The notes beneath the pieces were generated by a model, which was not told the origin of the DNA, did no database searches, and saw only the letters and a program-made list of their open reading frames with translations. From a virus, in IMG/VR virus record IMGVR_UViG_3300030099_002608, positions 1 to 25,044 of that record: a DNA stretch of 25,044 bases; one strand, 5' to 3'. Below, in pieces: positions 1,965 to 25,044 of the stretch (positions are counted from its first letter, which is position 1; every line of letters starts with the position of its first letter). A program made the position numbers and the translations under genes.

Positions 1965-2597
1965 ATGTTTCAGGGTGCTGATAAGACCGAATTCAGGAGA
2001 GGCAACTTGGAGTCTCGCGACAGGTTTGCTGCCGCTCCTCCGGGCATATCCTTGACAACTGACAACGAGAAGTGGCCGTGGGGTAACCCGCCACAGGAAG
2101 TTGATGTCGATGTGATCCTAGAACAAGCTACGGGTCGCATTGAAGACGACGATATATTCCGGGATGAACTTTTCAAGATACTGGCAGCAGGCATAAGTGT
2201 CGAACACATCGTAGAGGCGTGGGTTATCGACGGTTTTGAAGAGGGCAAATTTTCCCTTGATGCTGGACTCTTAGCAAAGGCACCTCTCGCTATGTACATT
2301 GCTTACATTGCAGAAGAAAACGATGTTCCGTATCGTATGTTTGAGCGCGAGGATATCAACGAGGATCGTCGCATGGACAACAGGGATTACCTGAATGTCA
2401 TGAAGACGAACAATCCGAACATGTTTGCAGTTCTGAAAGAAAACATGAACAAGCTGGTTCGAACCGGACTAGATGCGCTGGACGAGGTGCAAAACAGTCC
2501 GCCACAACAGCAGCCTCAACAGCAGGAACGAGGCGGTTTTATGACACAAGAAGCGCCACCTGAAGAGGTGCAAGAAGAAGAAGGAGGAGATTCATAA
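1965..2597 (+). CDS. Conserved phage virion-associated protein (hypothetical)
   Basis: The 210-aa protein begins with a segment containing APPGISLTTDNEKWPWGNPP (about residues 24-43). I have seen similar PPG-SLT-x-WPWxxPP segments in small conserved structural-block proteins of marine cyanophages and pelagiphages. A helical middle part (about 50-165) is followed by a Gln/Pro-rich and then Glu-rich disordered tail (PPQQQPQQQE, then EEVQEEEGGDS). The stop TAA overlaps the ATG of the next gene (TAATG). Exact role unknown; family resemblance is from memory and has not been searched. Confidence 0.72.
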   Translation: MFQGADKTEFRRGNLESRDRFAAAPPGISLTTDNEKWPWGNPPQEVDVDVILEQATGRIEDDDIFRDELFKILAAGISVEHIVEAWVIDGFEEGKFSLDAGLLAKAPLAMYIAYIAEENDVPYRMFEREDINEDRRMDNRDYLNVMKTNNPNMFAVLKENMNKLVRTGLDALDEVQNSPPQQQPQQQERGGFMTQEAPPEEVQEEEGGDS

Positions 2598-5500
2598 TGG
2601 ACCCTATTACTTATGGCGTCGTTATGGGCTTGGGTGAGTCTTTTCTTGCGGGTAAAAAGGCGCTATCAGAAGCTGCAAAAGAAAAGGCAGAGAAAGAGGC
2701 AGAAGTCAGACAGAATAGTCTGGATACGTTTGTCACGTTCTATACTAGCAAGGACAACAGACGAGTTGCTCAAAATCAGCTTGAAACGCGAAGTCCTGTA
2801 TTCTTAGGTCTTTTAAATCAACTTCCCGCCCACAGTCAAGCCGCCATAATCGGAAATGCTCTCGGTGATCTCAGTCTCACCGATACAGAATCCCAGTATC
2901 TCACTGCCATAAACGGAACTAATGGCACAGAAATTGCACGCAGTCTTGTTGTGGACATGAATGTTCAAAATAGTTTAATGAAAAGTCCTACAGGCAAGGG
3001 GGTGTGGAGCTTAATTACATCTAAAGCTGCAGGCGGTCTTTCTGTGGCAGAGCGAGACTTGTTTAATTCTCTTCCAGAGGATGAACAACAACGGTATGAT
3101 CAAGCGCAAACGCTTCTTGTCAACTATCCCAGAGACAGTGTCTTCGGCTCTATTCTTGCTCAGATACGAGAGCCTGTAAGCAGCGGATACGTGCCGCTTG
3201 ACACAGAGTTTTTCAACAGCATCAAGAGTCTGCTTCCTAGTCAAAGCGGTAAAGATGACGACGAGACACCAGTTCTTGCTCAAGGAACTTTAAAGGCTCT
3301 GGGAGCAGCGAGAAAAAGAATTCTTCCGTACGTAGAAGCCCCCATAATTACCACACCAGAGGACCCGGAAGGAAGCCCCGATCCTAACTTTGTGCCCGAT
3401 CAGAGGGCATTCAAGGACCTTCTTGCCATTGATATTCTACTAGGACAATACGGCACGTCAAACGGACTTGATGCAGATGCGGATGCAGAAACCATATCTG
3501 AACGTCTGCAAAGGATCGTAGACTCACTCCCGTCCAGTGAAATAGCAGATAAAAGCGCTAGAAGAAATTTTGCGCAAATGTCTCTAATTAGTCTTATGGG
3601 AGCGGCCTCAACGGACGAGGGAGGTCTTCCCACAGAAGCTCAAAAGCAATTCAGGAAGATGCTAGAGCTTACCGAAGAAAACGGTGCCGGAACTCCCGGT
3701 GCGTTCAGCGCGGAAGACTTAGATAATTTCAACGTAATTACTTCGATTTCTGAGATGGCAAACGAGATCGATAAAAATCGCAGTATATATGGTGGGGGTC
3801 TGGCTGTCGATACGAAAAAGTCAAGGCAAGAGGACCCCGCAGGCTGGTTGTTTGCGATAGATGCCGCGATAAAAAAGGGTCAATTCACGGACATGACTGG
3901 CGATGAACAGCAAGAGTTTATAAGCCACTTGACAGAGGCGTTAATTACAGATGCTGACCAGCGAAGAAATATGAAAAATGAAGCAGGTGAGTCCACTCCT
4001 GCTCCCGGCCGTGCCTACAGACAAATTTTCAAAAACATATACAAAGCTATTCCTACAGAAATGGACACCATCCTAAATAACATGGGGTTCACAGCGGTAA
4101 ACGAAACTGCCTCAGGGGCACCTAATGTACCGGCAGCGCAAGTTACTGCCATAGGCACGCCTCTTCCAGAAACACAGCTTCTGCTTGAAACTGGTCAGGT
4201 CATCAACATCAATGAACACGCCGTCAAGTTTGCAAACAGCATGGGTATGACAACTCACGCCATGTTCAAGACTGATCTACACTTCGGACTTTTGGACTTC
4301 GGATCATCAGACCCTGCACGCTTGTATAAAGCGGCAAACAGTGTCAAAAATTCAGGGATTTTTGCAAACAGAAGGGATCAAGCACTATCACAAGACTCTG
4401 CTGTAAAACTCGCTCAAATATTTGCAGCACAGGGCATAACGGATATGGCGGATCAGATTCGAGTTGTATCCACTGTCATGAGCAGCGACATTCCGCAAAA
4501 GTTTCAACCGGCTAAATATGACTATGCTATGTCAGAACAGAACTTCAATGCGTTCATGATGCAGGCTACAGGCGGACAGATCAATCTCAAGGACATCTCA
4601 AAGTTAAGAACGAACACGAACGACTTTTTAAATGTTGCTACGGAAGTCAGAGGATACTTGGAGAATCTTGGTGAAGGTTCCAGATTTACTGATAATCTCT
4701 CTGCATTCATTCTAAATATAGGTGGCGTAAAAGGAAACCTTGTGTCTCAAGCATTTCAGGGTGGATCAAACTTGCTTCAAGAATTGGGCATTTTCAAAGA
4801 AGCGGATATTCGTGCTGCAGACGGATTCACGGCAGCAGAACAGGCTAGAATGGTGCAGGACGTAGCGGATGAATTCTTTAAGAGTGAATTCCTAGAAAAC
4901 AATGCATTGCTCAAGCAGGCGCTTGTCACGCTAGCATACAACTATGCAAAGACTATGGACCCGTCTGGACGCATCTCCGAACGAGACTTTCAGGCTGCTC
5001 TAGATGCGGTTGCTGCGGGTGATCTAGACGTTCGTGAGACTCAAATTGCAGTTGTTGAAAACCTCATCTCTAAGGCACGAGAAAACTTAGGGTTCTTTGA
5101 CGGCGTCTTTGCTGTGGGTGTAGAGAGTGCAGCAGGCGGTCAAACGTATCGTCCTACCACTGCTACGATACAGAAGGCTCGTTCCATGCGGTACTATCGC
5201 CAGATACAACAGAATACGATGGGCATCGAAAAGGTTACGATGTACACTCAAGATGTTGCAAACTTTGGCACTGGCATCGGTGGTGCATTCCCCAGTAAAA
5301 AAATGAAAGACAAGTACACATTCTTACCTGCCACAGGTCTAGGCACACAAGCCGTGCAGGACAGGATATTTAGGGTTCAGTTGAAGAAGAGGGACGGTAC
5401 ATCCGGTGACTTTATACCCGGTGTTCCTCTCTACATAGACGGCAACGGCGTCATACTCACGCAGGCTCGAATGCAACCATATCTCATGGGAGCCACATAA
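2597..5500 (+). CDS. Large virion protein (967 aa), probable internal/ejection protein
   Basis: The 967-aa protein is mostly soluble and helical with mixed charge; the N-terminal 40 residues contain a charged helix (KKALSEAAKEKAEKEAEVRQ). There are no signal peptide, clear membrane spans or recognisable catalytic motif by eye. It starts at an ATG overlapping the previous TAA and is followed with no gap by an even larger gene. In T7-like and related marine podoviruses, pairs of very long proteins after the tail genes are usually internal core/ejection proteins that travel into the host with the DNA. That assignment is inference from size, order and composition. Confidence 0.75.
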   Translation: MDPITYGVVMGLGESFLAGKKALSEAAKEKAEKEAEVRQNSLDTFVTFYTSKDNRRVAQNQLETRSPVFLGLLNQLPAHSQAAIIGNALGDLSLTDTESQYLTAINGTNGTEIARSLVVDMNVQNSLMKSPTGKGVWSLITSKAAGGLSVAERDLFNSLPEDEQQRYDQAQTLLVNYPRDSVFGSILAQIREPVSSGYVPLDTEFFNSIKSLLPSQSGKDDDETPVLAQGTLKALGAARKRILPYVEAPIITTPEDPEGSPDPNFVPDQRAFKDLLAIDILLGQYGTSNGLDADADAETISERLQRIVDSLPSSEIADKSARRNFAQMSLISLMGAASTDEGGLPTEAQKQFRKMLELTEENGAGTPGAFSAEDLDNFNVITSISEMANEIDKNRSIYGGGLAVDTKKSRQEDPAGWLFAIDAAIKKGQFTDMTGDEQQEFISHLTEALITDADQRRNMKNEAGESTPAPGRAYRQIFKNIYKAIPTEMDTILNNMGFTAVNETASGAPNVPAAQVTAIGTPLPETQLLLETGQVININEHAVKFANSMGMTTHAMFKTDLHFGLLDFGSSDPARLYKAANSVKNSGIFANRRDQALSQDSAVKLAQIFAAQGITDMADQIRVVSTVMSSDIPQKFQPAKYDYAMSEQNFNAFMMQATGGQINLKDISKLRTNTNDFLNVATEVRGYLENLGEGSRFTDNLSAFILNIGGVKGNLVSQAFQGGSNLLQELGIFKEADIRAADGFTAAEQARMVQDVADEFFKSEFLENNALLKQALVTLAYNYAKTMDPSGRISERDFQAALDAVAAGDLDVRETQIAVVENLISKARENLGFFDGVFAVGVESAAGGQTYRPTTATIQKARSMRYYRQIQQNTMGIEKVTMYTQDVANFGTGIGGAFPSKKMKDKYTFLPATGLGTQAVQDRIFRVQLKKRDGTSGDFIPGVPLYIDGNGVILTQARMQPYLMGAT

Positions 5501-8500
5501 ATGACAGATTTTAGTCTAGACTCCTTGATACCTACATACGAGCAGTTTATTGCCGATAAAGGACCAGAGATAGAGGCAGTAACAACTGAAGCATCTGCCG
5601 ACATCATGAACGATTCCTTCGAGCAGGCGCTGTCAGGCGAACTCGACATGAACCTTATGTTCTCCGGAGAGAATAACACTCCTTTGCCGGTGATAGATAA
5701 CACTCTGTACGCTTCAGTCAAAGAGGCAAAGAAGGCAGAGGATGATGGAACCGCCTCTCCGGAACAAGTCGCTTTGCTGCAACAGACGAGGGACCCTAAC
5801 GGAGAAGTGCGTCAAAACTTTAACACGTACTACACCTTCAGCGACATGCCGCTGGAACCGATCATCACGGGCGGTAACTACCCTATCGATCCGAGAGATG
5901 GTCAAATGATCCCCGGACCAAGTCTGCCCTCGCCTATCGATATACCTGTGCTTTCCGGAATGAAGGAATTCATCACTGGTGCGCGAGCATTCAGCCCTAC
6001 ATATGCTGCGGCTGAAACTAAGGCAGAAGATGGAAGGGTTCTTGTAGAGTGGATGGCTACACGACGCGATGCGCCCTCATCCCCCGTCATTCGTGATGTT
6101 CTCACGCAAGCCCTGAAAACCGACATGGTCGATCTCGTAGGGGAAGGTATATACAACATTGCCAACAGCATAGAAGCGGGAGTAAGGTACCATCTTCCTA
6201 ATTTTACTAGACAATCTATAGACTGGGCAACAGGCTTAGTAAATATTGACACAGATTTTGCACGTAATGAAGACGAATTAAGGCAGGACCTAGAGACTTT
6301 TAGGAACAGTGCAATTTTTGGGGACCGGCAACAATTTGTAAATAATATCATCCGAGATCAACTCCGGTTACGTCTAGGTGAAGAAGAGTTTAATCGTCTG
6401 GGATTCAATGAAAAAGTAACTATCGATGGCGTAGAGAGGTTCAAGAAAAACTTTGTATCAGCCGAGTTTGCAGACGGACTCCTAGAGGCTGTATTTGATA
6501 GTAAGAGTTTGCCTGAAAAAGTAGGCAAATTAGTTGTAGAAGGTTACGGTGTTTACAACCTCGTTGCACGCCCCGTAACATTCATAAACAATTCTCAACG
6601 AGCGATTCGACGGAATATCATAAGACGAAAAGGTGAACCCGTTCCATTCACTCTTGAGTCCACAGTCACGGCTACGGCTATGGCTGAAACGATGTCAGCG
6701 GCGCGAGGAGTGCCCGTACAGCAGATAGCTAAAGAACTCGCTCTTGAAAACACAACTGCAAAGTGGTGGCACAGGTGGCGGGCAAACTCCATAGCACAGG
6801 CCATAGGTGACAAAGCTGCGTATAAAACTATCAGCAGCAGTCTGGCGGAAAACTCTGCCAAGATCGATGACTTAAAACTGCAACTCAAGCAGGCCAAGAT
6901 GGAGAAAAATTCGGCCAAGATTGCAACTATAAGTAACGAGTTGAGCAGGCAGCGTGCCCTCAGTAACTGGGGCACTATACGTAGGCTTGCTCCCGGACTT
7001 CGCAGGTATGGCATCCATCCTACATTCGACGTAACTATGGGCCTAGCCATGATTACAGGGCGTAACATGGCAGAGGGGCCAATAGGAGAATTTTACGGTG
7101 CCGTCACATTCATGGGCTTATATGGAGCTAAATCTTTTTTTCAGTACAAAGTTCCTCTCGTTGGTAACTTTGCCGACAACATGGCTTTTAAGACGCGGGC
7201 AAATACAGAAAAACTTGTCAGCAGTGCATTTGCTCTCACGGGCGCAGCAAAACGAGGCTTTGCAGAGGGGTGGCTAATCAATCCTAACTTAAAGACTGTT
7301 CTCTTTGCTGACGACGCTGCTAAAAGCAGGATGACATCCACAGAACTGAAAGCTATGCGTGACATGGCAGAGGGCTTCATGGGGATGCCTGTCGCAGAGC
7401 GTCAGGTCATAGTAGACTCTCTAGACCAGTCATTTCAAGACATAGATACAGTTATAGGTCCTATCAGCGAGTATCTTGAACCAAATCAAGTCGCAAAACT
7501 ACGACAGACTCTCTCCATGTCTATGGCACAAGCTAGCGGAGCCAGCACCTTCTTTGCAATAGCTAGGGCAATGGACCTTCAAACGTCGGGACTAACAGCA
7601 AAAGATATACAGACGGTAAACAGCAAGCTCAAGAATAAAATATCGCAACAAGTTGATGGCGAAAGACAGGTTGCTGCACTGGGAGCTATCGTGGAATCTC
7701 TGGATACTCAGATTATGGAGATATCCGAAACGATTTCTCGTACGACGGATGCTCCACCAGAAGTGGTTCGCGCGAGACAGGAAGCGTTAGATCGTTTGAA
7801 AATACTGGCGGGATCATTCGAGGGAAGCTACGACTTTGCTGTAAAAGAACTGAATGACATGATTGCAGATGACTTGCAACAGTCGCGACAAATCATAGAA
7901 GAACTTAAAAATCCAGTAAATGTTTTTGATAGAGATGCAGCGCTCCTGTCGGGGCAGGTAGATACTCTCATAGAAATTCAGAACAGGTTTGACAATCGTT
8001 ACCGACAGAACACCGCTAACAAGGGTGGCTTCGTAGAAGTTGCTAGTCCGAATGATCCTAATAACGTATCCATGTTGCGTCTCGGTGATGACGGCAGCAG
8101 TCGTGTCGCAGCAGAAGCGGGGCTACGACAGCAAACGGATGTTGTCAAAGAGAGTATCGTAAAGCTTCAGACCGCAATTATCACAACCGTTGAACGATCT
8201 AGACTGCCAAGCGATTCCGCAGACATTAGGCTTGCAGCAAGCGCAACCATATCAGACCTGCACAAGCTTACGAATCTAAGTGGCAAGCAGTTAGTAGATG
8301 ACTTCTACGCTAAGATACCTGAAGTTAAAAATATTGAACTCGACGTTATGGGAAGCAACCTGCTTCGTTTCTTCGAAGAATTCAAGACATCTGCAGACGA
8401 CAGCATAACGCGACAACTTGATCCACGCACCTTCGACGCTCTAGGTGGTCGTATGGGTGTGAACATGATTGAATCCCTAGACGGTGCAGCGGGAAGAGGT

Positions 8501-10516
8501 CTGCGTCTGTTTTTCTCAAATGAAGATGTTCTAGCTAGAGTAGCAGATAACTACAGGGAACTAGACATAAGCGTAGTAACTGCAGACGATGCTATTCGTG
8601 TCTATAAAGAAATGTACTACGGTGCTGATCCTCAAGAACTAGCTAAGATGGGCGTAAAAAACTGGGAAGAAATCACGGACCTAAAGCTTGCTCTCCGAAT
8701 GATGGAAGACCCGGAACTGGACGTTCTCAACGCATCCACTCTTAGGTTTATCGCATCTCCGAAAGAACTTGAAACACTCCGACAGAGTATGAAGAAATTC
8801 ACCACGAGTAACAATGATGAGGTATCTAAATTTGCAAAACTCGTACTGGGACAGATCGATAACACCTTTGAAAACTGGGGTCAGGGATTGAATGAGGATG
8901 CCTATAACGCAGTTGCAAGAGCGAGGATGGCACATAGAGTAGATGCGCAACGTAATGATCAGGGCACATTCGGATACAAGATAGACAAAGCGACAGCAAG
9001 CACTGCCAGAATAGAAGAAGGCGCTGTGGTTACAGGCACTAGCCGCGATATAGCAGGGCTTTTGAATCCTCTGGTAGACGCTGTTATGAATCCGACAGTG
9101 GACTCACCCCGAATAATCAAACAAGAAATGGAATCACTTCTGGCTACGTTTGCTCCCGTAACGTCGTCGCTGCCTGAATCCGTACTCACTGCCAGCCCTG
9201 CGGCAGGCAAGCTTCGCATCATGGAAGCTGAAGAGCTATCTCAAGCTGTCACATCTGTCATGGACGGTGAATCGTACGATAGGTTGCGTGCTATCGTGAC
9301 CGTTGCACTAAAAAATGCTTTCTTCGAGCAAAGTAATATTAAAGGTATAAAAGCCTTTGCTGACAAAAATAAAATTCCCACGCTTCCCCCAGACAACGCG
9401 CCAAGAGCGATCCAGTATCCAGAGGCTGACTTTGACAATGTGTATGACTACCTAGCTTCCATTCAGGATTCGTTCATCGTGAATGTGCAACTGGCTGATG
9501 GCTCAGTTCTCAAGGGACAGCGTCTGTTCGACATAGAGGACATCCTCATGCAGGACAGGAGTATAACGGACGTAGTGAACGCAATTCCAGAGTACAGACA
9601 AGCACACGCAGACTTGCTGTCTCTTGCCAAGACAGAACTCGAAGGAATTGAACAAGGTGCAGAGGCTGTAAGAACACAGGAAATGAACACTCTCAAGCAG
9701 TTGCTTGGTGGTGCAGACTCCACAGTCGGAGATGGCTTCGTGGCAAATGTGCTTGAATCCACAAATGCAAAAGCTATGGACAAATTTCTTGATAGCACTA
9801 AAAGACTTGTAGGAACAGACGAGCAAATCACCGGAACCATGCAGGCTCTGTTCAGTGAAACCTTGAAGTCTGTGGGAGGATATGGTCCGGGACGAAGAAA
9901 AATCAAACTATTTGACGGTACAGAAGTGCCCACGGATTCTTATGGACGCCCTGATCAAGCCTTTGCACTTCTCGATGATGCACTGTCGGGAGGAAGTCAA
10001 GCAGGCAGAAACTTCAAACAATTAGCGGATGCTGCGGGCGTCACTCAAGAACAGCTAGAAACACTTCACGCCGTATTCCGTTTGTCCACCAAGATCAGCG
10101 GAGAAAGATTGGTAGCAGATGCAGCGGCGGGCACATTGAAACAAACTACGAAGGGTTTCACACTCGACAACGCCCTCTCAAAAGCCTTCAACCTTGCTAG
10201 AGGAATGGTCAGCACGGAATACGTTGCAGCAGAAGTCGCTATCAGATACGCCGCTCTCGCAAAGGGCAGGACGCTGGAGTTCTTGGTAAAAGACCCACGC
10301 TCCGCAGAAATCGTAAGGAACCTGTTGAACGATCCGACAAATGTGGACCCACCTGATGCACTATACTTTGCACAGAGTCTTATCAAGTTTGTAGGAAGAG
10401 ACATTCCACGCGGACTGCTTGAAATCGACGCGACGGACAGCGACTACATAATGGAATACTGGAAGAGTCAGGGCATGGTTTTCGATGTGGATGACCGTGG
10501 TGAACCTACAAGATAG
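5501..10516 (+). CDS. Giant virion protein (1671 aa), probable DNA-ejection/internal core protein
   Basis: At 1671 aa this is the longest gene in the window, over 5 kb. It is largely helical with coiled-coil stretches, for example residues 440-490 (LKLQLKQAKMEKNSAKIATI) and several Gln/Glu-rich helices around 700-830. A Gly/Ala/Met-rich moderately hydrophobic stretch at about residues 500-550 (TFDVTMGLAMITGRNMAEGP and following) could insert into membrane. I looked for lytic transglycosylase, peptidase and RNA polymerase signatures and saw none. The start directly follows the previous stop. Size and position match the gp16-like internal virion proteins of podoviruses, but no sequence motif proves it. 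Other possibilities are a tail-tip or tape-measure-like protein. Confidence 0.78.
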   Translation: MTDFSLDSLIPTYEQFIADKGPEIEAVTTEASADIMNDSFEQALSGELDMNLMFSGENNTPLPVIDNTLYASVKEAKKAEDDGTASPEQVALLQQTRDPNGEVRQNFNTYYTFSDMPLEPIITGGNYPIDPRDGQMIPGPSLPSPIDIPVLSGMKEFITGARAFSPTYAAAETKAEDGRVLVEWMATRRDAPSSPVIRDVLTQALKTDMVDLVGEGIYNIANSIEAGVRYHLPNFTRQSIDWATGLVNIDTDFARNEDELRQDLETFRNSAIFGDRQQFVNNIIRDQLRLRLGEEEFNRLGFNEKVTIDGVERFKKNFVSAEFADGLLEAVFDSKSLPEKVGKLVVEGYGVYNLVARPVTFINNSQRAIRRNIIRRKGEPVPFTLESTVTATAMAETMSAARGVPVQQIAKELALENTTAKWWHRWRANSIAQAIGDKAAYKTISSSLAENSAKIDDLKLQLKQAKMEKNSAKIATISNELSRQRALSNWGTIRRLAPGLRRYGIHPTFDVTMGLAMITGRNMAEGPIGEFYGAVTFMGLYGAKSFFQYKVPLVGNFADNMAFKTRANTEKLVSSAFALTGAAKRGFAEGWLINPNLKTVLFADDAAKSRMTSTELKAMRDMAEGFMGMPVAERQVIVDSLDQSFQDIDTVIGPISEYLEPNQVAKLRQTLSMSMAQASGASTFFAIARAMDLQTSGLTAKDIQTVNSKLKNKISQQVDGERQVAALGAIVESLDTQIMEISETISRTTDAPPEVVRARQEALDRLKILAGSFEGSYDFAVKELNDMIADDLQQSRQIIEELKNPVNVFDRDAALLSGQVDTLIEIQNRFDNRYRQNTANKGGFVEVASPNDPNNVSMLRLGDDGSSRVAAEAGLRQQTDVVKESIVKLQTAIITTVERSRLPSDSADIRLAASATISDLHKLTNLSGKQLVDDFYAKIPEVKNIELDVMGSNLLRFFEEFKTSADDSITRQLDPRTFDALGGRMGVNMIESLDGAAGRGLRLFFSNEDVLARVADNYRELDISVVTADDAIRVYKEMYYGADPQELAKMGVKNWEEITDLKLALRMMEDPELDVLNASTLRFIASPKELETLRQSMKKFTTSNNDEVSKFAKLVLGQIDNTFENWGQGLNEDAYNAVARARMAHRVDAQRNDQGTFGYKIDKATASTARIEEGAVVTGTSRDIAGLLNPLVDAVMNPTVDSPRIIKQEMESLLATFAPVTSSLPESVLTASPAAGKLRIMEAEELSQAVTSVMDGESYDRLRAIVTVALKNAFFEQSNIKGIKAFADKNKIPTLPPDNAPRAIQYPEADFDNVYDYLASIQDSFIVNVQLADGSVLKGQRLFDIEDILMQDRSITDVVNAIPEYRQAHADLLSLAKTELEGIEQGAEAVRTQEMNTLKQLLGGADSTVGDGFVANVLESTNAKAMDKFLDSTKRLVGTDEQITGTMQALFSETLKSVGGYGPGRRKIKLFDGTEVPTDSYGRPDQAFALLDDALSGGSQAGRNFKQLADAAGVTQEQLETLHAVFRLSTKISGERLVADAAAGTLKQTTKGFTLDNALSKAFNLARGMVSTEYVAAEVAIRYAALAKGRTLEFLVKDPRSAEIVRNLLNDPTNVDPPDALYFAQSLIKFVGRDIPRGLLEIDATDSDYIMEYWKSQGMVFDVDDRGEPTR

Positions 10517-17264: not shown

Positions 17265-18806
17265 TTACTGATCTACTTCGTGCAAGTCAAGCCAATTATC
17301 GCCCATTTTTATCTCAATACCGACAGGCATGTCATAGCGGATGCCGTATCTCCGTATAGTTTCTTCAGGCAGGGACAGCATTGCTTCACGCATCAGACTG
17401 ACACAGATATCTTTTTCATCAGGATGACAGTCAATAACGATAGAGTCGTGGACGGTATTGCAGATGACAGACATCAAACTATTTTTTATAAATAGTTTGT
17501 CCAGTCTGACAAGAGCGGCGGGCAACAGGTCCGCAGTTGCAAATCCCTGCACAGGATAATTGCATATGTTCGTGCGATGTGTCGCCGTGCCATACTTTGT
17601 CCACCGCGCTTCAGGAAAAGCATACTGCCTACCAGAGGGAAGGGTGATTACTCGCTTTTCAACGGCCTCTCGCTGCAGGTCTTCGTGCCACGTGGACACT
17701 CCCCCGTACTTTTCTTTAAAGGCCCTGTAGTAGCGCTGCTGGGCCTCTGTGCCCGTGGTTCCACCGTAGAGTGGCTTGAACGTGTGAGCCTTCGCCTCTT
17801 GCCGCGAACAACCTATGACGCTTGCTGTATAGCTGTGAACATCTGTGCCGTCACGAACATCATCATACGCTTGCTTATCGCTAGCTAGAAATCCTGCGAC
17901 TCTGAACTCCAGTTGCGAGTAGTCGCCCTCAATGATCTTGCCGTTCTCAAAGCGACTCTCGACAACCTTGCGTATTTCGAAGGTATTACCACGTGGCATA
18001 TTCTGAAAGTTCGGGTTACGAGACGAAAGGCGACCCGTCGCAGTAACACATTGCATAAATTCTGGATGTATGATCCCGTAATCATCGACATTGTTTTTCA
18101 TCCCTTCTACAAAGGTGCCCAAGTACATACGCAGTGCATTGTACCGCACATACGCAGATGCAAACTCACGGGCTTGACCCGAAAGTTCTAGTTCACGTTC
18201 AGCCAGTGTGTCCTTGTCTGTCCTGAATCCTGCTGACGCAACATCTCGCACACTACGTGGAACGATCTTAAATCCTGCTACTTCCCTTGTCGGCATGTAC
18301 ACGACACCCTTGCCGCCACAGTAAGTGCAGATGCGAACAGCCTTGCTTGGCGTGCCATCCTTACGCACAGGCCGCACTCTGCCCTGACCCAAGCAGGTAG
18401 CACAACGCTCACCCACTGTTTTATACACAACATCTGTGTTGTTACGAACAGCGATACGAAACTCTTTGCCGGACATTCGAGTACGTTGCTTGGGTTTCAT
18501 CGTGGCACCACGAAGCTCCATGCCCAAGTTGAACAGATTTGACCACGTTCCCTTGTCTTTTACTTTTCGTGAGTACAGAAGCATAGACCTGTCGTCGGGA
18601 CTGGTCAGACTTATGGGAGTGTCACCCATAGCTTCACGAGCCATGTCATTGAGACGCAACTCAAGTTCATCAAGTTCCTCTTGATATTGCTTTTCAATCT
18701 CCTTGAGTGTGTCGATGTTTATACGCAGTCCGTTTCGTTCGATACGGGAAAGCGTATCAGCCATCTCAAAGGACAGGCGAAGGGTGGGCAGTAGACTGTT
18801 CGTCAT
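17265..18806 (-). CDS. polA: Family A DNA polymerase (polymerase domain only) with DnaJ-type zinc insert
   Basis: The 513-aa protein synthesises phage DNA. Motif A is GDYSQLEFR with Asp295. The O-helix runs from Arg335 to Tyr347 (RQEAKAHTFKPLYGG) with Lys339; Phe343 aligns with E. coli Phe762. Motif C is VHDSI with His453-Asp454. There is no 3'-5' exonuclease domain; that activity is encoded by the overlapping upstream gene. Residues 135-167 carry two CxxCxGxG motifs (CATCLGQG and CTYCGGKG), a DnaJ-type zinc-binding insert in the region before the palm, a feature I recall from phage HMO-2011. Start at 18806 chosen because GAGGAA lies about eight bases upstream; upstream Met codons at 18842 would extend into the exonuclease gene. 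Confidence 0.95.
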   Translation of the reverse strand: MTNSLLPTLRLSFEMADTLSRIERNGLRINIDTLKEIEKQYQEELDELELRLNDMAREAMGDTPISLTSPDDRSMLLYSRKVKDKGTWSNLFNLGMELRGATMKPKQRTRMSGKEFRIAVRNNTDVVYKTVGERCATCLGQGRVRPVRKDGTPSKAVRICTYCGGKGVVYMPTREVAGFKIVPRSVRDVASAGFRTDKDTLAERELELSGQAREFASAYVRYNALRMYLGTFVEGMKNNVDDYGIIHPEFMQCVTATGRLSSRNPNFQNMPRGNTFEIRKVVESRFENGKIIEGDYSQLEFRVAGFLASDKQAYDDVRDGTDVHSYTASVIGCSRQEAKAHTFKPLYGGTTGTEAQQRYYRAFKEKYGGVSTWHEDLQREAVEKRVITLPSGRQYAFPEARWTKYGTATHRTNICNYPVQGFATADLLPAALVRLDKLFIKNSLMSVICNTVHDSIVIDCHPDEKDICVSLMREAMLSLPEETIRRYGIRYDMPVGIEIKMGDNWLDLHEVDQ

Positions 18807-19347
18807 TGTATAGTTCCTCAAATGTAGTGCCAAAGGCATCAAGTTGTTTCAGAGCTACTTGCTCCGTGCTTATGACATCAGCGATGCCATACTCTTTTAC
18901 GATCTCCCACGGTATGTCGTAGAACGTCTTTCCCTCGTCCAGATACGGCTGGACAAGGTCTTTCTCTTTTTGCACTGTGTCATACTTTTTTGCAAGAGCA
19001 GCAAGTCCAAGAGGCCAACGTCGCGCCTTCGATAAAATATATTCTGCAACCATCGTATCATAGATGTGTCCCTCGTATATGAAACCGCAGTCACGTATCC
19101 ACTGCAAGTCGAACTTGATATTCTGACCAACAACCAAGTCAGCGTAGTTGAGTGCCAGTTGAAACCCCTCCGTAGCAGCTTGTGTCGGGGGTTCTGTGGA
19201 GTGATAGTAACAGTCATAGACCACCGCACTACCACGCCACTTGTAGCCTACCGACACAAGGCGATTACCAAAGTAGGGTAACGCAGTGGTGCCGCCGTTC
19301 GGTTTGTCCGTGTGAGTTGTCTCCACGTCAAAGGTCAGGACGTTCAT
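18766..19347 (-). CDS. 3'-5' exonuclease (DnaQ/Pol I proofreading domain type)
   Basis: The 193-aa protein has the three exonuclease motifs of the DEDDy group: Exo I Asp7-x-Glu9 in LTFDVETT, Exo II Asp80 in GQNIKFDLQW, and Exo III Tyr153-x3-Asp157 in EYGIADVIS. These residues bind the two metal ions. The protein corresponds to the proofreading domain of Pol I and is encoded separately, overlapping the polymerase gene by 41 bases in another frame. It probably acts as the polymerase's proofreading partner in trans. ATG at 19347 is preceded by GAGGAGGAGT and forms an ATGA overlap with the small gene upstream, so it is preferred to the longer frame starting at 19425. Confidence 0.92.
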   Translation of the reverse strand: MNVLTFDVETTHTDKPNGGTTALPYFGNRLVSVGYKWRGSAVVYDCYYHSTEPPTQAATEGFQLALNYADLVVGQNIKFDLQWIRDCGFIYEGHIYDTMVAEYILSKARRWPLGLAALAKKYDTVQKEKDLVQPYLDEGKTFYDIPWEIVKEYGIADVISTEQVALKQLDAFGTTFEELYNDEQSTAHPSPVL

Positions 19348-23076: not shown

Positions 23077-23209
23077 ACTGTGGCACAGGGTGAGGGACTA
23101 CTACCTCACGCACGACGGCATAGAGATGTTGTTGCTGGCGTGCATGTGGGGTTCTTTGGCATGGATGGCCTATCACGCTGTCGTCGGTATTGTAAGGAGG
23201 TTCTTCTGA
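23069..23209 (+). CDS. 46-aa single-span membrane protein (hypothetical)
   Basis: The protein has a basic start (MNKLWHRVRDYYLTHDG), one hydrophobic span (about 18-40, containing EMLLLACMWGSLAWMAYHAV) and a short basic end (GIVRRFF). It overlaps the upstream gene by eight bases (ATGAATAA), and its TGA shares a base with the ATG of the zinc-finger protein downstream. It is the fourth tiny membrane protein of the window. No family recognised. Confidence 0.7.
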   Translation: MNKLWHRVRDYYLTHDGIEMLLLACMWGSLAWMAYHAVVGIVRRFF

Positions 23210-23535
23210 TGGAAAACCATGTCGAATCTTGTCACTGCTGGCACTGTGGCGGCTACGGCAAAGTCGCTTACACAAGGGCTGTTCCCGATCCGATCTGCGG
23301 CGGCGACCTTGTCGAGGAGTACGGTCACTGCCACGACTGTGATGGCAGCGGGGGATTGTATCGCGCCAAGCTAACACAGACGACGGTAATCCGTGCCTTC
23401 TTGACACAAGCGAAACACGCTCTGGAAGATATCGAACTTAATTCGACAGACCTTGACACGATCTACAGTAAGATTGATGATCTTGTCGGTGACGTTGAAC
23501 GCTACGAAACAAAGGTAGGTACACGGGATGAATGA
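23209..23535 (+). CDS. Protein with two DnaJ-type CxxCxGxG zinc motifs
   Basis: In this 108-aa protein, CWHCGGYG lies near the start (about residues 10-17, inside SCHCWHCGGYGK) and CHDCDGSG lies at about 42-49, separated by a short charged loop. Two CxxCxGxG repeats form one zinc-binding half of the DnaJ cysteine-rich region. The C-terminal half is helical and acidic (FLTQAKHALEDIE, SKIDDLVGDVERYETK). AAGGAGG eight bases before the ATG is one of the strongest SDs in the window. No J domain is present, so it is not a co-chaperone in the usual sense. The phage polymerase carries the same type of motif pair. Role unknown. Confidence 0.8.
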   Translation: MENHVESCHCWHCGGYGKVAYTRAVPDPICGGDLVEEYGHCHDCDGSGGLYRAKLTQTTVIRAFLTQAKHALEDIELNSTDLDTIYSKIDDLVGDVERYETKVGTRDE

Positions 23536-24195: not shown

Positions 24196-24441
24196 ATGAA
24201 AAAACGTATACACATAAACCAGCACGTCATCCGCGCCAACAAAAAGAACGGCACGAACGATCCGGCGATCACTGTAAAAACGTATAAGGAAAATTTTTAC
24301 GCTCATCGCGTCGGGATTAGTGGGCCATCGTCTGTTGTTTACTCACCGGATAAGCCGCTAAGTTGTGGCGCTCATGTGTGGATTGAGACTAACGAAACAG
24401 TAATAGCACATGGCGGCAAAAAGGTGAAAATCCTACGATGA
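24196..24441 (+). CDS. Conserved small phage protein (81 aa), unknown function
   Basis: The protein starts MKKRIHINQHVIRANKKNG and contains GPSSVVYSPDKPLSCGAHVW followed by an acidic strand (IETNETVIAHGG). I recall very similar INQHxIRxN and VYSPDKPLxCGAxVW segments in small proteins of many phages and some actinobacterial genomes, all unassigned. AAGGAA nine bases before the ATG fits an SD. Forty-two bases separate it from the zinc-ribbon gene, holding no gene; its stop overlaps the next start as ATGA. Confidence 0.8.
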   Translation: MKKRIHINQHVIRANKKNGTNDPAITVKTYKENFYAHRVGISGPSSVVYSPDKPLSCGAHVWIETNETVIAHGGKKVKILR

Positions 24442-25044
24442 CAAAACAGGCCACGCTAATCGATCACGAAAAGATGATCTACAATATTACCAGCGTCTAC
24501 CGTGACGCCGACGAAACGCAGCATGCGGATGGTTTGTTGTGGTATGACAATGCACAGAAGGCGGCGTATCGTATCGCGTTAAAATATGACGTTCCTGTTT
24601 ATATCGCTGTTGCTGTTATCGCCGCGCTTTCACCTAACAACAAATGGTCACGCAACTTGATAAATGCCGACGCTTTAATCGGTGCCTTTGTTAATGGTGA
24701 CGGCATCGACGCGGTGAAAGTCTGCACATATAACAAGATGAAACAGAAGGCATGGGACATCTTGGCGGCGCGTCCGGACTACGACGGCGCAAAACGTATG
24801 CTGAAAGGGCAAAAGATTACGTCGTTCTTTTGTGACATCATGGGCGAGTTCAACGTGACAATCGATGGACACGCCCGAAACATCGCTTATGGTGAGCGTG
24901 TCAGCTTGAAGGACGACCGGTCGAACATTGGCATCCGTGAATATCGCGCTTTACAAGCTGCATATGAGGCGGCAGCGGAACGGCTCGGCCTCATGCCCTA
25001 CCAACTACAGGCGATCACTTGGCGCGTCTGGCGCGACCGGCACG
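24438..25044 (+). CDS. Conserved phage protein resembling HhH-GPD DNA glycosylases (partial, runs off the window)
   Basis: At least 202 codons are visible with no stop. Key segments: AVIAALSPNNKWSRNLINAD, then CTYNKMKQKAWDIL, LKGQKITSFFCDIMG and VTIDGHARNIAYGER. Read against endonuclease III, these align in order with its LSxxTxxxxxN helix, its KAxxI helix, the GVGxKTA hairpin (here KGQKITS) and the VDTHVxR strand that holds the catalytic Asp (here TIDGHARN). This suggests a base-excision DNA glycosylase or a catalytically altered relative; no Fe-S cysteines can be judged because the C-terminus is missing. I know this as a recurrent unnamed phage family; the glycosylase link is my inference from motif order. 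Confidence 0.75.
   Translation, partial: MTKQATLIDHEKMIYNITSVYRDADETQHADGLLWYDNAQKAAYRIALKYDVPVYIAVAVIAALSPNNKWSRNLINADALIGAFVNGDGIDAVKVCTYNKMKQKAWDILAARPDYDGAKRMLKGQKITSFFCDIMGEFNVTIDGHARNIAYGERVSLKDDRSNIGIREYRALQAAYEAAAERLGLMPYQLQAITWRVWRDRH

Follow-up and report, generated by a model that had tools for sequence, protein, structure and literature searches.

A split family A DNA polymerase gene with a predicted DnaJ-like zinc hairpin at the thumb tip in a virus fragment related to marine phage HMO-2011

Results

The stretch of DNA analysed here (the window) is a 25,044-bp IMG/VR virus record, and the feature of interest is a family A DNA polymerase encoded on its minus strand (Table 1). Pfam recognises the polymerase domain in the 513-aa product (DNA_pol_A, 2e-48), both catalytic aspartates of family A are present, and D295, K339 and H453-D454 fall in columns that are invariant among the relatives. 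Two CxxCxGxG motifs, CATCLGQG (135–142) and CTYCGGKG (160–167), lie N-terminal to D295 of motif A, exactly where the first-pass annotation of this sequence had placed them, and shuffling the protein 200,000 times never produced such a pair. AlphaFold2 modelled the polymerase with a mean pLDDT of 87 and the insert that carries the motifs, taken alone, with 80; in the full model the hairpin reaches 83–91.

The same annotation had called the enzyme proofreading-less, because one open reading frame was read alone. This label does not survive inspection of the neighbouring gene, since a complete DEDDy exonuclease is encoded separately, directly upstream. Its ORF matches Pfam DNA_pol_A_exo1 (3.6e-11) and PHROGs 17, 403 and 192, with the best match to the fused family PHROG 17, and its motifs are intact (DVE, NIKFD and YGIAD for DxE, NxxxD and YxxxD). 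Motifs I and III were found in 64 of the 64 split relatives with a full-length exonuclease, and the strict motif II pattern in 60 of the 64; the other four read N(I/L)KFDI and retain the catalytic aspartate. A Shine-Dalgarno-like stretch followed by ATG, GTG or TTG in the polymerase frame occurs in all 71 close relatives and in 124 of 129 members of a wider set, but the same combination is also present near the boundary in 93 of 161 fused genes, and is thus weak proof of separate translation. Linkage and conservation suggest that the exonuclease acts in trans with the window polymerase.

Table 1. Features of the polymerase locus and of other genes mentioned in the text, in window coordinates
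Feature	Position	Strand	Size or residues	Remarks
Family A DNA polymerase subunit	17265..18806	minus	513 aa	Includes stop; ATG at 18806
Polymerase motifs			A, D295; B, R335-K339-F343; C, H453-D454	
Thumb-tip insert	18276..18563	minus	~96 residues (82–177)	Profile alignment and confident predicted fold
Zinc hairpin (predicted)	18306..18404	minus	Residues 135–167	CATCLGQG...KDG turn...CTYCGGKG
Separate DEDDy 3'-5' exonuclease (proofreading)	18766..19347	minus	193 aa	Next ORF upstream of the polymerase
Overlap of the exonuclease 3' end with the polymerase 5' end	18766..18806	minus	41 nt	Different frames; same arrangement in relatives
Shine-Dalgarno-like GAGGA	18815..18819	minus		Ahead of the polymerase ATG; from sequence
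Very large protein	2597-5500	plus	967 aa	
Very large protein	5501-10516	plus	1671 aa	
Stand-alone protein with DnaJ-like motifs	23209-23535	plus	108 aa	
Uncharacterised phage family PHROG 3842	24438-25043	plus		1.9e-57

When the polymerases of E. coli (Pol I), T7 and related Vibrio and Stenotrophomonas phages are aligned by profile with that of the window, the insert falls cleanly between the equivalents of Q594 and G595 of E. coli Pol I, which mark the thumb tip, and ordinary polymerase sequence resumes at an invariant A177-G178. As had been proposed, the insert is missing from E. coli Pol I and T7 gp5; it is also missing from the related Vibrio and Stenotrophomonas phage polymerases examined, and the related Zobellviridae polymerases have loops of varied length at the insertion point that are devoid of cysteine pairs. 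The segment is not ordinary thumb sequence, a reading that the first-pass annotation had named as fatal to its own. All four cysteines of the hairpin are present in every one of 304 distinct relatives that are long enough, a count that takes in relatives found with search seeds outside the insert, and nearly all preserve the 25-residue spacing. When the insert alone was searched by tblastn against 50,697 phage records, as that annotation had advised, the matches were to HMO-2011-type phages only (12 records at E ≤ 1).

The cysteines are kept more strictly than the first glycine of motif 2. Between the cysteine pairs, the net charge was +3 to +9 in all 236 relatives tested, against +1 in E. coli DnaJ; the K-D-G turn is near-invariant, and the conserved positions beyond the cysteine/glycine framework are mainly basic, while much of the loop varies. 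Phages infecting SAR116, Roseobacter and SAR11 all retain the hairpin. It is also conserved equally in fused and split enzymes, and hence is not a device for holding a detached exonuclease. One contig filed under a Euryarchaeota MAG (L384), which is probably a misbinned phage, has CDECKGNK as its first motif, the last glycine being lost and the cysteines kept.

The Pfam DnaJ central domain (PF00684) aligned with residues 133–170 over profile positions 16–54, at a score of 19.3 that lies below the cut-off of 32.7. Foldseek placed DnaJA2 (probability 1.00), BSD2 and anti-TRAP at the top for the insert model, with UvrA lower, and the E-values are weak because the match extends over only ~40 residues. 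By sequence profile, the nearest solved proteins were lambda-type Q, DnaJ and UvrA, again with weak E-values over ~40 residues; the zinc finger of the lambdoid antiterminator Q and the zinc module of UvrA (the latter recovered by fold as well) belong to different proteins, neither of them a polymerase. Because the profile match covers positions 16–54 and the motif spacing of 25 residues is near the 22 that separate motifs 2 and 3 of E. coli DnaJ, rather than the 53 that separate motifs 1 and 4, we read the core of the insert, from alignment and model, as the inner half of the DnaJ zinc region, comprising motifs 2 and 3, with one C4 site. The four cysteines are predicted to lie on a beta-hairpin at the thumb tip that folds like a DnaJ zinc site, and on this fold match would not be scattered; the zinc module suggested at first pass thus agrees with the structure prediction that had been recommended as its check. 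The hairpin would presumably bind one zinc ion.

The inner zinc site of the DnaJ cysteine-rich domain likewise consists of two CxxCxGxG motifs with a beta-hairpin between them, whereas the window insert is a half domain with a more basic loop, set in a polymerase thumb. Pfam detected no J domain, and there are only two CxxCxGxG motifs compared with four in DnaJ/Hsp40, so the protein is not a DnaJ/Hsp40. Elsewhere in the window, a stand-alone 108-aa protein carries two DnaJ-like motifs, CWHCGGYG and CHDCDGSG, and homologues of it, 68–74% identical, are encoded by four longer contigs from the window's clade.

T7 gp5 provides another case of a large thumb insert in a phage family A polymerase, its thioredoxin-binding domain, and the two inserts flank the same short helix. 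The T7 insert, which we take to span residues 258–333, has no zinc motif and lies N-terminal of the FNPSS helix, which starts at residue 334, just after the insert ends; the window insert, in contrast, lies C-terminal of the FNPSS/NLSST helix. Equivalence of the two was rejected on position, using the profile alignment and a T7 sequence with the thioredoxin-binding domain removed, although a plain multiple alignment had stacked one upon the other.

Relatives were gathered from IMG/VR, phage records and genome collections, and were reduced to 304 distinct polymerases. These comprise 167 fused enzymes, 125 split with a +1 relation, three split with a +2 relation, two in the same frame with a stop, and seven without exonuclease sequence in the locus. 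HMO-2011, HTVC033P and eight CRP phages encode exonuclease, insert and polymerase in one ORF of about 680–715 aa. At the other extreme, the exonuclease and polymerase genes of six loci (L434, L438, L439, L440, L456 and L470) are separated by 177–1243 nt in which other open frames lie. Among these, a 150-residue frame in L456 may encode a nuclease, and L434 and L438–L440 have helix-turn-helix-like frames.

A tree of 102 polymerases places the split forms in one group of 60 representatives, within which the fused L467 and L473 are nested (support 100/99); the deepest branches of the tree are weakly supported (63/15). L162 is broken in the middle of the exonuclease and looks like an isolated indel. 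Leaving it aside, two changes would suffice on this topology, for example one fission and one re-fusion. L467 and L473 are possibly the products of that re-fusion, or neighbouring members might have split independently.

Three studies (PMC9038755; PMC6918029; PMC8528129) describe it as a hallmark of HMO-2011-type marine phages that their DNA polymerase contains part of a DnaJ domain, with two CXXCXGXG motifs. The first of these reports the feature from all isolates and 207 metagenomic genomes, and takes it as a criterion of membership. The portions of these papers available to us assign the insert no function beyond a reference to the role of DnaJ in lambda replication, in keeping with the first-pass remark that the purpose of the zinc module was not known. 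The closest isolate to the window polymerase is Pelagibacter phage HTVC033P, at 48% identity, followed by the CRP phages and HMO-2011 at 38–41%; together with the published hallmark, this supports the HMO-2011 lineage that had been suggested at first pass. The window polymerase carries the two motifs N-terminal to the palm and shares the enzyme type, the thumb insert and the order of the replication module with HMO-2011, CRP-1/2/3 and HTVC033P. It differs from these isolates in that exonuclease and polymerase are separate, overlapping genes instead of a single chain.

The window RNR shares 70% identity with its HMO-2011 counterpart, and the order of the replication module is similar. Since neither a TerL nor a coat gene was identified within the 25-kb fragment, its HMO-2011-type membership is inferred through relatives: among the long contigs of the split clade, 10 of 10 encode an HMO-2011-type TerL (53–57% identity) and 10 of 10 a related coat protein, in one case as a fragment at the contig end. 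The two very large proteins of the window had no tblastn match in the 50,697 phage records and none in PHROGs, and for the 967-aa protein weak relatives occur on two of the clade's longer contigs. The right-hand end of the window encodes a member of the PHROG family given in Table 1.

Discussion

We propose that this locus supplies an HMO-2011-type marine phage with its replicative family A polymerase, which would be made as two proteins, an exonuclease subunit and a polymerase subunit. The overlapping genes would be translated separately, with the polymerase beginning at its own GAGGA and ATG. Zinc would staple a rigid, positively charged beta-hairpin with its conserved K-D-G turn onto the thumb tip, from where the hairpin may contact primer-template duplex lying behind the active site, thereby increasing DNA affinity and processivity. 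Its role would resemble that of the thioredoxin-binding loop that T7 carries at the opposite flank of the short thumb helix. Taken as a whole, we regard this account of a two-subunit polymerase with a zinc-stapled, basic, DNA-holding thumb hairpin as having roughly even chances of being right.

The thumb deletion made in Pol I reportedly removed residues 590–613. Truncation of the thumb lowers both the processivity and the fidelity of Klenow/Pol I (Minnick 1996, as cited in PMC10061031), and placing a thioredoxin-binding domain in the thumb of Taq polymerase raises its processivity (PMC4215692). Contact with DNA is consistent with the nearest modules, which besides DnaJ include the nucleic-acid proteins lambda Q and UvrA, and the zinc finger of lambda Q has been proposed to take part in DNA recognition (PMC9371919). 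Against such contact, DnaJ-type hairpins also bind protein, as in DnaJ, BSD2 and anti-TRAP, and the thumb extension could face away from the DNA.

The two-gene form itself could be questioned if exonuclease and polymerase were joined into one chain by a programmed +1 frameshift at CTT TGA, comparable to that of bacterial RF2, or if the split were a sequencing or assembly error. The sequence CTT TGA G is indeed present in the window and in a few relatives, and the +1 relation prevails in most of the clade. The codon ahead of the exonuclease stop is not conserved, however (GCT, GTT, CTT, ACT and others), +2 relations and same-frame stops occur elsewhere, the genes of six loci stand well apart, and the +1 split is common to 125 distinct polymerases. 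We therefore rejected both frameshifting and error, and give a single chain very little credence. Because the frame relation varies and some members have intergenic gaps of 177–1243 nt, we consider from the compared sequences that the two-gene form is real.

For the hairpin, the main rival to DNA contact is that it serves as a docking site for a replication protein, for instance helicase, SSB or a host factor resembling thioredoxin, any gain in processivity coming through this partner. The zinc modules of DnaJ, BSD2 and anti-TRAP, its top fold matches, work by protein contacts, the T7 thumb insert binds thioredoxin, and in a PolA-SSB pair predicted for C. perfringens the contact is made by the thumb tip (PMC10061031). 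We nevertheless think docking unlikely, given that the conserved positions outside the cysteines and glycines are mainly basic and that the hairpin is kept across SAR116, Roseobacter and SAR11 phages, which makes a host-specific partner less likely, a phage partner being possible. Less likely again is a zinc site that merely staples the thumb extension and makes no contact of its own. It would account for four invariant cysteines in a loop that otherwise largely varies, yet the charge and the K-D-G turn are likewise conserved, and a purely structural loop could be lost, as in the related Vibrio and Stenotrophomonas phage polymerases; we regard this reading as improbable. The J domain is the part of DnaJ that activates DnaK. 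Since this domain is absent here and there is a single zinc site where DnaJ has two, we think it highly improbable that the module recruits the DnaK chaperone system of the host into the replisome of the phage, in the way that DnaJ works for lambda; the idea was raised in PMC9038755 from the role of DnaJ in lambda replication.

Building on the preferred reading of a DNA-holding hairpin, the metal-stapled thumb extension could act alone as a processivity element, taking the part that the thioredoxin loop plays in T7, and in one marine lineage the proofreading domain of this enzyme would have moved between cis and trans (split, separated by genes, re-fused) and would hence be a dissociable subunit. 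We offer this broader idea tentatively, as a possibility that we think less likely than not. The group is a natural experiment on one enzyme, whose proofreading occurs in cis, in trans, or with other genes in between. Both the split/fused set and the thumb-tip hairpin are relevant to the way in which phage replisomes acquire processivity and fidelity.

In the sea, phages of the HMO-2011 type are dominant and widespread (PMC9038755), and their polymerase serves as a marker gene. The DNAP phylogeny published there kept only sequences longer than 540 aa, and would therefore miss the split form, which has about 510 residues. We found no description of a split exonuclease and polymerase in HMO-2011-type phages in the open-access literature; as far as that literature shows, the two-gene enzyme is apparently undescribed, while the insert itself was already known. 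Stand-alone proofreading exonucleases next to a separate polymerase are likewise represented by PHROGs 403 and 192 ("DNA polymerase exonuclease subunit"), but the window exonuclease is still closest to the fused family, and its kind of split occurs only in a single HMO-2011-type clade, where fused members are nested. In Zobellviridae-type phages (L366 3001-5111; L367 2995-5119; L092 1766-3859), the polymerase is split at another place, with exonuclease plus thumb in one gene and the palm in a second.
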